Of a DNA stretch of 64,000 nt, positions 14,736-18,145 are shown piece by piece (position 1 is the stretch's first letter; each line of letters opens with the position of its first letter). The notes under the pieces are model-generated. The model saw only the letters and a list, made by a program, of their open reading frames with translations, ran no database searches and was not told the origin of the DNA. Location: NCBI RefSeq assembly GCF_000024545.1, contig NC_013947.1, positions 3,844,001-3,908,000 on the forward strand, given 5' to 3'. Made by a program: the position numbers and the translations under genes. Source of the stretch: Stackebrandtia nassauensis DSM 44728. GTDB taxonomy: Bacteria > Actinomycetota > Actinomycetes > Mycobacteriales > Micromonosporaceae.

Positions 14736-15776
14736 TTAGCCGGTGAGCATCCATACACGAGTCAGCGGCAGGCGAGAACGGATGTCTTCAGGCAGCCGGT
14801 CATATACCCGGGTCACCGCATCCACGACGTCTTCCGCAGTCCAAGCCCGAATCCGAAACTGTTGCCCATACACCGACGCACGAGCACTCTTGGTCAGCCC
14901 ACCCCAGGCCACCAGCAGTCCCTGGTCCGCGCGTTGAGAATGAATAACGCCGCCGAGATCACGAACCACGGTGTCGGAAATCTGACCACCCGACTTGACC
15001 TGAACGATCAAGCGCGGTGAGTCCATACCAAGAAGCCCGCCCCCGGCGACGATGTCGATCCCCTTATCAGCCCCCGGGGGTGACATGGTGCAGACATAAC
15101 CTTCGGCCCTAAGAATCGCGGTTATCAGCAATGCCAAGTCATGACCGGCGAACTCCTCGGCGATGCGTGCGGTGATGCGATCGCGCGCCACCTCTTCGAT
15201 GTCCGTGTGCGTTTCCGGTTCGTCCACATCATCAGCGCCAGCCGACTCGGACAGACTCACCGGGGTGGAGAACGAAACCAGCCCGGGATCTTCTCCGGTC
15301 TCCAGCAGGGCCTCCAGCCGGGCGATCGCGTGCCCCTTGGTCGGTGCGAAGATCGACAATGCGCTGCCGAGGGTGTAGAGCAGGTCTTGCTTCACCGCTG
15401 AGCGGGGCAGGTCCGTTCGTTGCCAGTCCACTCTCACCACATGCCGCTGGTCCGGGTCGGGTTGGTCAGCGAGGTACTCGTAACCGCTGGTGACGCGTCC
15501 CATCGCGAGTTGCTTCGTCGTCTTCATCGGCATGACTATCAAGTCGCCTTTGGCGATACGGCCACGAAGTGCCCACGTCTGCCCGGTGTAGTTGGCCTGG
15601 GTCGCCATCCCCATGTCAGGCAAGATCTTGGTGATGACCGCCGCGATGTCCTCGCGGCTCTTGCACGCAGTCAGGTCGGGCCATTCTCGCCAGCCGCCAC
15701 CAGAGACCCCGTTGGCAAGCGCCCACTGATCGCGTTCACCGTTCCTACCGGACCGGACCACCCACGCCACGCCCAT
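14736..15776 (-). CDS. Mrr-type restriction endonuclease (type IV-like)
   Basis: The 346-residue protein has an N-terminal domain of about 150 residues with the WALRGRIAKGDLIVMPMKTT pattern seen in restriction-system proteins, an acidic linker, then a C-terminal Mrr_cat nuclease domain. The nuclease shows GIDIVAGG and IVQVKSGG, giving the D...QxK active site of the PD-(D/E)xK fold. Mrr enzymes usually cleave modified foreign DNA. AGGAGGTGCC before ATG 15774-15776 fixes the start. No methyltransferase gene is adjacent, consistent with a modification-dependent enzyme. It opens an accessory island. Confidence 0.85.
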   Translation of the reverse strand: MGVAWVVRSGRNGERDQWALANGVSGGGWREWPDLTACKSREDIAAVITKILPDMGMATQANYTGQTWALRGRIAKGDLIVMPMKTTKQLAMGRVTSGYEYLADQPDPDQRHVVRVDWQRTDLPRSAVKQDLLYTLGSALSIFAPTKGHAIARLEALLETGEDPGLVSFSTPVSLSESAGADDVDEPETHTDIEEVARDRITARIAEEFAGHDLALLITAILRAEGYVCTMSPPGADKGIDIVAGGGLLGMDSPRLIVQVKSGGQISDTVVRDLGGVIHSQRADQGLLVAWGGLTKSARASVYGQQFRIRAWTAEDVVDAVTRVYDRLPEDIRSRLPLTRVWMLTG

Positions 15777-16103
15777 GGCACCTCCTGAAAAGCTTGCGCG
15801 CTGTGGCATCGCGCCACGGCCACTGTGCCGCCGAACCACGCTCTTCCTGGCATACAACAACAGTGAGCAAGTTATACCCCATCAGGGGCACTTCGGCGTT
15901 TCGCCTTTAACCATCCGGCCGAATATGAAGACACAACCTAGTGTGCTGAGTCGTTTCTTCGTCGGCAGTCGACGGTGATGGGTTCTCACGCGACCATTGC
16001 CCTTTCAGTACTATTAGGATTAGAAATCGGTCATGTTCAGATGGGAGGGGAGGGCGGGTAAGGTTTGGGCAGTCCCTGATTCCAATGTGGTTAAGGCGGG
16101 TGT
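15777..16103. other. Divergent intergenic region
   Basis: This stretch separates the mrr-like gene from a small plus-strand gene. It is relatively AT-rich, and TACTATTAGGAT near 16011 looks like a possible -10 region, but no strong promoter or repeat is evident. No coding frame is convincing. Confidence 0.4.
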
Positions 16104-16459: not shown

Positions 16460-16809
16460 TTAGGTATCCACCACAAGTTCCCACCGGAATCGGGAGCATC
16501 TGAATACTGGCTCTAGGTCGCGTTCGGTGTTGCCCGAGAGGATGCTGTATCCGAGCTTCGCCAACCCTGGCGGGGACAACGCTTTGGTCTCGGTGTCGGG
16601 TAGATCCCATACAGGCGTGCCAGGATTGTCGCGGTCCTCGCCAACGGCAAAGTGCAGCCTGATGCCGCAATCGACGTCGCCCCAACCGGGTGGGTACAGG
16701 CCCAAAGAATGCGCGTACTCCACACCAGCTCAGCCGCGTCGAGAGTTTCCTCTCTGGCGAGGAGGTCGGCATGCGCATCCGGGTCGGTGGCCACCGGCTG
16801 CACGGTCAT
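16460..16809 (-). pseudogene. Second candidate immunity gene, frameshifted
   Basis: The expected start is the ATG at 16807-16809, which overlaps the previous stop as ATGA. It begins MTVQPVATDPDAHADLL and runs to DAAELV; the homologous continuation EYAHSLGLYPPGW is in another frame to the stop at 16460. Removing one TG from the GTGTG repeat (CACAC on the plus strand, 16721-16725) joins them into one frame of about 115 residues. The joined product resembles the 98-residue protein encoded directly upstream (DxxxLLA...LD...L...A...GLxPPG). It may be an inactivated immunity gene, a phase-variable one, or a sequencing error. Confidence 0.6.
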
Positions 16810-17102
16810 GGCTGGGCCGAATCCCACACTGCGGCGTCGTCCTCGTCGGCGGGCACCCCGTCGTCGCCCAGTCGGCTGGTGCTCCACAGCAGCACCCCGT
16901 CACCGTCGTCAGCGCCGGGCGGCCACGCCAGGTCGATGGAGTAGTAGTGACCGGGCACGTACCCGGGCGGTGTGAGGCCGCGGCCGATGGCGTAGTCGGC
17001 CAGTTGGTGCGAGTCGAGGTCGTCGACGCGGGCCATGAGATCCGCCAGCAGCACAGGATCGTCGGTATCGTAGTGCGCGTCGATGTCGTGGTGGGTCGTC
17101 AT
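16806..17102 (-). CDS. Small acidic protein, candidate immunity protein for the deaminase toxin
   Basis: The 98-residue protein is strongly acidic, without membrane segments. Its ATG overlaps the toxin stop (ATGA, 17099-17102) and its own stop overlaps the next gene (ATGA, 16806-16809), the arrangement expected of toxin-immunity operons. The layout (a DPVLLADLMARVDDL helix, then strands around GHYYSIDLAWPPG and GVLLWSTS) loosely recalls Imm1 proteins that accompany SCP1.201 deaminases, but the match is too weak for a firm family call. The immunity role rests on position, size and charge. Confidence 0.6.
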   Translation of the reverse strand: MTTHHDIDAHYDTDDPVLLADLMARVDDLDSHQLADYAIGRGLTPPGYVPGHYYSIDLAWPPGADDGDGVLLWSTSRLGDDGVPADEDDAAVWDSAQP

Positions 17103-18145
17103 CGAATCGCCTCTCCGGTTCCCTTATAGACTCGTCGGCGTAGCCAGCCGCTCTCCTGCACACTATGCACGTACAGCGCATACCCCACCGACAGCATCGC
17201 CACGATGTTCGAGTGACACCGCTTCGGGTCCTGGGGCTCCTCCGCGCCACAAACGGCCTGGTTGATGTACAGCACCGCATCCCGCTGCTGGTGTTTGACC
17301 ATGAGCGCGGCTGTGTTTCCCTCGATATGCCAGCCGGTCGTGTATCCCGGGTCCGAGGCCCATGGTTCTTTGAGGTCGGTGCGCTGGCTGGCCGGGCCCC
17401 GGCGCGACGCGATCAGCATGCTCGCGTTCCACGGGGTGCCATCGCGGTGGTACAGCTGCCCGCGCGCCCGCACATCATCGTCGGACTGAGGTTTCTTTGG
17501 CCAGCCGACACGGCGGATCGCGGCAACGTGAGGCGCGCTGGGCGGGTCGGGTCGCCACCTTGCGTGCGGTCCTGGCGGTGTCGTGGGTCGTGGGCTATCG
17601 GTCGCGGTTTCCTGCTCGGTGGCCGTCACCGATGCCGTCCCGTAGACGGCGAGCAGCTGCCGCCGGTACTCCTCGACGGCCCGGTACGCAGCGTCGACGG
17701 CGGCGGTCGCTTCCGGACCTACCGCGGCTATTTCGGACACGGCGGCCTTCACACTGGCGGACCCGACCTCGACGGCGAGCGCGTAGGCGTCGCCGGACTT
17801 GGTGACTGCCGCGGTGGCCGCCGTGTGGGCCTGGTCCAGCTGCTCGACAGCCGCATCCACGTGCCCGAGGACATTGTCGCGGCGGGGTTCCTGTGGGACG
17901 CGGTCCAGCGCGCTGACGGCGGCAAGCACCGCAGTGCGCGCAGTCATCCAACAGGACGTGGTCTCGTTGAGCGCGTCGGTGATCTGCTGTAGCCCCTCGC
18001 CGGGCGCCGCAAGACCCATCCCGTGCGACCACCGAACCATGTCATCAGCGGCGCTGCGGGCCGTCTCGGTGGCCACCACCGCCTGCTCACACCGCTCGGC
18101 GGTGACCACCACCGTGGTGCGGGCGGACTCCAGCGCGGTCGACAT
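17099..18145 (-). CDS. DddA/SCP1.201-like cytidine deaminase toxin
   Basis: The C-terminal domain (about residues 225-335 of 348) matches the DddA-like DNA deaminase family: RGQLYHRDGTPWNASM, then YTTGWHIEGNTAALM with zinc ligand His273 and catalytic Glu275, VLYINQAVC with Cys299, and Cys310 followed by NIVAMLSVG. Known members deaminate cytosine in DNA and act in contact- or secretion-dependent killing. The usual PCxxC pair is spread by an insertion to C-x10-C. Residues 1-175 are predicted long helices, Ala-rich and WXG/ESX-like, followed by a Pro-rich linker. There is no signal peptide. Candidate immunity genes follow by 4-bp overlaps. Confidence 0.82.
   Translation of the reverse strand: MSTALESARTTVVVTAERCEQAVVATETARSAADDMVRWSHGMGLAAPGEGLQQITDALNETTSCWMTARTAVLAAVSALDRVPQEPRRDNVLGHVDAAVEQLDQAHTAATAAVTKSGDAYALAVEVGSASVKAAVSEIAAVGPEATAAVDAAYRAVEEYRRQLLAVYGTASVTATEQETATDSPRPTTPPGPHARWRPDPPSAPHVAAIRRVGWPKKPQSDDDVRARGQLYHRDGTPWNASMLIASRRGPASQRTDLKEPWASDPGYTTGWHIEGNTAALMVKHQQRDAVLYINQAVCGAEEPQDPKRCHSNIVAMLSVGYALYVHSVQESGWLRRRVYKGTGEAIR

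Follow-up and report, generated by a model that had tools for sequence, protein, structure and literature searches.

A DddA-like deaminase toxin locus of Stackebrandtia nassauensis and a candidate family of small acidic immunity proteins in one lineage of its relatives

Stackebrandtia nassauensis LLR-40K-21, an actinobacterium from soil assigned to biosafety level 1 (PMC3035245), encodes in its genome a toxin with a C-terminal DddA-like deaminase domain, immediately followed by a small, strongly acidic protein (the product of gene 2) that is likely its immunity protein. The locus lies in a 64-kb stretch of the single contig (3844001-3908000; hereinafter the window, with all positions counted from its first letter) and was read to window position 16460. 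Among the relatives that we examined, the family of this small protein stands in for the known immunity protein Imm1 within a single branch of the DddA-like toxins. We consider it probable that the locus is a toxin–immunity system of the polymorphic-toxin kind, working by the mechanism proposed below, and, with somewhat less assurance, we lean towards the view that the small proteins constitute an undescribed family of acidic DNA-mimic immunity proteins specific to a single DddA-like lineage, the split in the toxin tree marking an exchange with Imm1. We found neither the family nor its clade-locked pairing with the toxins described in the profile libraries and papers searched, whose coverage leaves out most subscription journals and preprints.

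The Deaminase Domain of the Toxin

The C-terminal domain of the toxin matches the Pfam family PF14428 (DddA-like) with an E-value of 3.5e-40 and 137.5 bits against a cut-off of 25. This profile match had been set beforehand as the check on an earlier note, made from the sequence of the window, which described a DddA-family deaminase with an HIEG motif and Cys299/Cys310 behind a helical N-terminus and a Pro linker. That description held throughout: H273, I274, E275, G276, C299 and C310 are all present as stated, and the predicted model has the domain behind the helices and linker. The four zinc-site residues (H273, E275, C299 and C310) are invariant across 40 aligned sequences, which we chose from DddA-like loci, and the predicted structure superposes on DddA with the deaminase fold. 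Many matches in the structure comparison are helical bundles falling on residues 1-174 and reflect a common arrangement only. A phmmer search with the whole toxin recovered no PDB chain at E 1, the domain profile being needed for that: its top match is 8w20, an entry of the umbrella-toxin paper, and the solved DddA was also matched. The number of residues between the two zinc cysteines ranges from 5 to 15 in the 24 parsable sequences among 28 toxins with the small immunity family. The toxin is an ordinary new member of the known PF14428/SCP1.201/BaDTF1 family, and by analogy with DddA and UmbC1 it most likely deaminates cytosine in DNA.

A Candidate Family of Small Acidic Immunity Proteins

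The toxin open reading frame (ORF; 348 codons) and that of gene 2 (98 codons) lie on the minus strand and overlap by ATGA. Gene 2 has no match at E 1 in Pfam (Imm1, PF14430, included), NCBIfam or PADLOC, and the best PDB match of its profile is a designed protein (E 0.03), which was not used. In the family that we built from relatives' genes lying downstream of a DddA-like domain, G42, P45, P46 and W73 are invariant in 13 sequences; across 43 sequences G42 and W73 remain invariant and P45 and P46 are kept in at least 90%. These 43 members have no match at E 0.01 in Pfam or NCBIfam (sporadic hits, each from one or two members, begin at E 0.037 and 0.013), and the Imm models likewise give none at E 0.1.

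The gene 2 product has 21 acidic against 3 basic (K, R) residues and a net charge of -18 in 98 residues; the mean charge per residue is -0.149 for the family, compared with -0.081 in Imm1 (56 stretches) and -0.005 in ORFs of the window (37). Because gene 2 and its family are this strongly acidic and DddI is reported to inhibit DddA by DNA mimicry (PMC10442228), it is fair to suggest that the gene 2 product, too, most likely acts as a DNA mimic.

The family profile matches at least 59 places in 22 of the 121 genomes sampled from the bacterial family, a lower bound in that at most 45 candidates were scored per genome. At 34 of the 59 the match lies 5-855 nucleotides downstream of a DddA-like place on the same strand, and DddA-like places are present in 20 of these 22 genomes (Fisher p 2e-8). 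In a class sample, where no more than 18 candidates from each genome were scored, two other genomes gave weak matches (1.4e-4 and 0.006). Judged from this linkage, together with the tree and the covariation described below, gene 2 likely encodes the cognate immunity protein of the toxin.

Some arrangements of the family are observations in their own right. Three small-family domains occur in one open frame at L002 (771-1676, minus strand), L096 (2495-3430) and L100 (2522-3268). At L019 (877-1603, minus strand) a stretch resembling, by eye, a deaminase C-terminus is flanked by two small-family genes, in the manner of an orphan cassette.

Immunity Type and Toxin Phylogeny

We found 109 DddA-like places, two of which are second pieces of counted loci, and a further one (G026:C13, L100, with small-family genes) was not counted. 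Among the resulting 106 loci, from 46 genomes, 71 have Imm1 alone downstream, 27 the small family alone, one both and seven neither. A tree was built from 99 domains with at most 35 flanking residues, excluding seven short loci (two with the small family, three with Imm1, two with neither). In it a single branch (100/99) splits the 26 small-family toxins from the 68 Imm1 toxins, the other five rows having neither; immunity type thus needs one change on the tree, as few as in none of 500 shuffles.

Loci outside the tree agree with this split. The small-side profile gives the better score for L100 and for two Glycomyces loci, L173 and L174, all three of which carry small-family genes; the two Glycomyces loci share 79% and 64% identity, respectively, with L008, itself a member of the tree (L172 and L175 only duplicate L008 and L014). 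In the class sample (L176-L185) it is the Imm1-side profile that gives the better score for all ten loci, with just 20-23 bits for four of them, and Imm1 stands beside four of the ten. The 8w20_A fragment also falls on the Imm1 side (70.3 vs 32.9 bits). Further, toxin and immunity distances are correlated within both groups (small-family pairs, r 0.573, n=26, equalled in 0 of 5000 permutations; Imm1 pairs, r 0.781, n=68), a covariation part of which may come from shared genome ancestry. In Glycomyces sp. TRM65418 (L172, the same sequence as L008) a small-family domain and an Imm1 domain over the cut-off share one frame, and in L174 the second part resembles Imm1 with a score under the cut-off; such a fusion may represent an intermediate in the exchange of immunity proteins.

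If the small proteins are such a family of DNA mimics, the fusion, the poly-immunity arrays and the toxin remnants joined to immunity domains show how antidotes gathered. The sharp match of branch and antidote offers a clean test case for the way in which a toxin lineage comes to replace its type of immunity protein. Relatives of DddA also serve mitochondrial base editing, and deaminase candidates are reported to have been co-expressed with their immunity proteins (PMC9935910), and the branch studied here has an antidote family absent from the profile libraries searched.

The N-Terminus and Delivery

The model of the toxin has helices at residues 2-42, 48-81, 89-127 and 130-168, forming a four-helix bundle with a predicted local distance difference test (pLDDT) score of 83-93, followed by a linker whose pLDDT is under 50 at residues 172-197. 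The earlier note had suggested delivery by an ESX-like route, on the grounds of the helical N-terminus and the lack of a signal peptide. The genome does have four places, none inside the window, at which EccC scores over the NCBIfam cut-off; on the other side, no Pfam family exceeds its cut-off on the N-terminus, no WXG100 or LXG domain was recognised there, and WxG occurs in none of 16 compared N-terminal stretches. YxxxD/E occurs in two of the 16, one of which is the window toxin, near the end of its helical part. The toxin may be exported by ESX.

Within the genus, related helical N-termini head other C-terminal regions or stand alone, as found with a profile that contained rows from the window. 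A profile lacking those rows matches the window N-terminus at 18.6 bits over residues 51-127, again against N-termini of other DddA-like toxins; its second half scores 14.7 bits (shuffle maximum 11.0) and its first half 3.5 bits, within the range of 1000 shuffles (about 95% below 5.5, maximum 10.0). A division of the N-terminus into two tandem helical units was considered and is not supported, two of the 16 rows of the profile that hits both halves having been the window's own halves. Likewise set aside was DUF6244 as the N-terminal family: it is over the cut-off in L009 only (99.6 bits), a literature search returned no paper on it, and the five genus genomes gave no match, a silence shared by the control genomes, so that absence from the genus is unproven.

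No small partner gene was recognised upstream of the toxin in the window; one is plausible at the single loci L031, L148 and L138, in a screen that also took wrong-frame ORFs, and at L003. At L114, a DddA-like toxin of the Imm1 branch, a 211-residue ORF directly upstream has a WXG100_2 domain (52.5 bits), a possible link of part of the family to type VII secretion. Elsewhere in the S. nassauensis genome, L214 (781-1833, minus strand; C1:665908 region) encodes a helical N-terminus joined to an unrelated C-terminal region with no Pfam family over its cut-off.

A Broken Third Gene

The earlier note had read three ATGA-coupled genes here, two of them for immunity proteins. Both overlaps are real, a second ATGA at 16806-16809 opening a further frame after gene 2, and gene 2 kept its place as an immunity candidate; the third gene does not stand as an intact one. 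Its two parts were searched separately. The frame that starts at the ATGA matches the family profile weakly over positions 3-27 (E 0.022), and another frame (16460-16723) matches the adjoining positions 29-71 with E 1.5e-12. In BLAST the N-terminal part finds a relative at 5e-4 and the C-terminal part is 53% identical over 43 residues to L068. Because two frames match adjacent parts of one profile, we count the gene as broken: judged from its sequence, it is what remains of a second immunity gene of the small family after a frameshift, and the alternative of an intact immunity gene was rejected, its frame being broken after about 30 residues. Nor do we favor a simple copy of gene 2, as L068 and L019 are the closest matches of the C-terminal part, with gene 2 outside the six best.

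It could be argued that the break arose as an error of sequencing, or that a programmed frameshift allows both immunity proteins to be made, given that family-like sequence is kept in both parts. We regard this as unlikely, since 108 pseudogenes are reported in the genome paper (PMC3035245) and decay is seen at other loci of the same genome. Thus, at L005 (1129-2049; C1:5560804 region) a DddA-like domain is truncated soon after HLEG and continues in frame into a small-family domain, with a second small-family gene after it. At L208 (1243-2286; C1:4168412 region) no deaminase separates a helical N-terminus from the Imm1-like part after it (15.7 bits, below the cut-off), a part that by eye resembles the gene beside L006.

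Proposed Mechanism and Points That Weigh against It

Briefly, we advance the following mechanism. The first gene would most likely encode an exported antibacterial protein in which a helical bundle for delivery and a flexible linker precede the zinc-dependent deaminase; the latter, as a relative of DddA (SCP1.201, BaDTF1), would most likely deaminate cytosine to uracil in competitors' DNA. The product of the translationally coupled gene 2 would most likely bind the toxin and cover its active site as a DNA mimic, a masking by which the producer and its siblings would survive. Gene 3 would be a leftover immunity gene, accreted as in poly-immunity loci. Features of polymorphic toxins seen here are the immunity gene directly downstream and, in the family, tandem and orphan immunity genes.

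Several observations weigh against this proposal. Those in the deaminase domain concern its substrate and its integrity. The loop between C299 and C310 has no aromatic residue in the position where DddA uses Phe1375, which we take to sit between DddA's two zinc cysteines. The toxin also lacks an SPKK-like tail, a motif linked to activity on double-stranded DNA. In the small-family branch, an aromatic is found in 10 of the 24 parsed loops and an SPKK-like motif in none of the 27 toxins with a checkable tail. Replacement of Phe1375 (F1375A) is reported to abolish the activity of DddA (PMC10442228), and among eight homologues tested in another report all four highly active ones have SPKK-related motifs (PMC9935910). 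Since both the Phe1375 equivalent and the SPKK-like tail are missing, duplex DNA is not assured as the substrate, and it is a possibility that we hold short of even chances that the enzyme acts on single-stranded DNA, RNA or a nucleotide despite its DddA fold. Set against this, UmbC1 in E. coli is reported to convert C-G to T-A (PMC11062931), a result that leaves the strandedness of its substrate unsettled. Further, the loop of 8w20_A, which from its deaminase domain we take to be UmbC1, is also without an aromatic, so that this residue is possibly not required for duplex activity.

In addition, a valine precedes C299 where 19 of the 28 branch toxins have a proline (by a rough parse). Together with the frameshift in gene 3 and the partial or complete loss of the deaminase at L005 and L208, this could indicate a locus that is decaying and has lost its function. 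The toxin and gene 2 are nonetheless intact and coupled, with the catalytic residues kept, and we judge such decay to be quite unlikely.

A second set of points concerns delivery: the N-terminus has no named delivery domain, and its kinship to the N-termini of relatives is weak, being for the first half no better than chance. It is conceivable, then, that the locus is an intracellular toxin–antitoxin or phage-defence module and not an exported weapon, as a small, acidic, translationally coupled antidote, an Mrr-like nuclease gene nearby and a match of PADLOC JetC to the helical N-terminus (E 2.4e-4, which may be a coiled-coil match) would also suggest. We assign this a low probability, given that tandem and solitary immunity genes are typical for polymorphic toxins, that another DddA-like toxin (L114) has the WXG100_2 gene upstream, and that the relatives of the toxin domain, DddA and UmbC1, are exported weapons.

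Finally, 25 of the 59 small-family places lack a DddA-like place upstream of them. Among 20 stretches examined, comprising 23 of these 25 places and one paired locus (L100), the deaminase profile matches only L082, on the other strand, and the paired L100, other toxins not having been searched for systematically; several of the stretches have two or three small-family domains and the remainder one. These many copies without a DddA-like gene also bear on whether gene 2, being small, acidic and adjacent to the toxin, might be its secretion chaperone or adaptor, with immunity encoded elsewhere. Both they and the fusion to Imm1 in one Glycomyces argue against such a role, as does the way in which the family tracks the toxin branch and substitutes for Imm1, a known immunity family; we hold it to be very unlikely.

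Features of the Locus

The features of the toxin–immunity locus are collected in Table 1. About 0.6 kb past the gene 3 remnant, a gene at window positions 14736-15860 (minus strand) encodes an Mrr-type restriction endonuclease domain (PF04471, 1.9e-17).

Table 1. Window coordinates of the toxin gene, its predicted parts and the two genes that follow it.
Feature	Position	Strand	Basis
Toxin gene, 348 residues: helical N-terminus, linker and DddA-like deaminase	17099..18145	-	ORF, PF14428, model
Toxin residues 1-170: four long helices, possible delivery part	17636..18145	-	Model
Toxin residues 171-199: Pro-rich linker, predicted disordered	17549..17635	-	Model
Toxin residues 200-348: DddA-like deaminase domain with H273, E275, C299 and C310	17102..17548	-	PF14428
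Gene 2, 98 residues: small acidic family, likely immunity protein	16806..17102	-	Profile, linkage, tree, covariation
Gene 3, N-terminal part: 98-residue ORF opened by the ATGA, family-like over about the first 30 only	16513..16809	-	
Gene 3, C-terminal part in another frame, 87-residue ORF: apparent remnant of a second small-family immunity gene	16460..16723	-	

Relationship to Known Systems

The closest known system is DddA/DddI of Burkholderia cenocepacia (PF14428, BaDTF1). The toxins belong to the same deaminase family by the Pfam model, the profile match to solved DddA and the superposition; they share the HxE motif and two cysteines, and an immunity candidate adjoins the toxin in both. 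However, DddA is delivered by the type VI secretion system, whereas the window toxin has a helical-bundle head instead. The earlier note had drawn this contrast in architecture, and fairly so, though DddA-like domains are common in the bacterial family, where they occur in 46 of the 121 sampled genomes, many on short helical-headed proteins. The window toxin also differs in having 10 residues between its zinc cysteines, compared with 2 in DddA, and no SPKK-like tail, and gene 2 has no sequence match to the DddI entries in the PDB.

The Streptomyces umbrella toxin UmbC1, with its immunity protein UmbD1 (Imm1), is likewise reported as an actinobacterial deaminase toxin with the immunity gene directly downstream; it differs in being a large, repeat-bearing particle protein and in having Imm1 as its partner (PMC11062931). 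Lastly, the SCP1.201 toxins of Zhang et al. (2012) are of the same family as the window toxin, and the partners listed for them are Imm1 in Actinobacteria and Imm4 in Burkholderia pseudomallei (PMC3482391), whereas gene 2 is without a Pfam match at E 1 and the 43 members of its family are without one to the Imm models at E 0.1.
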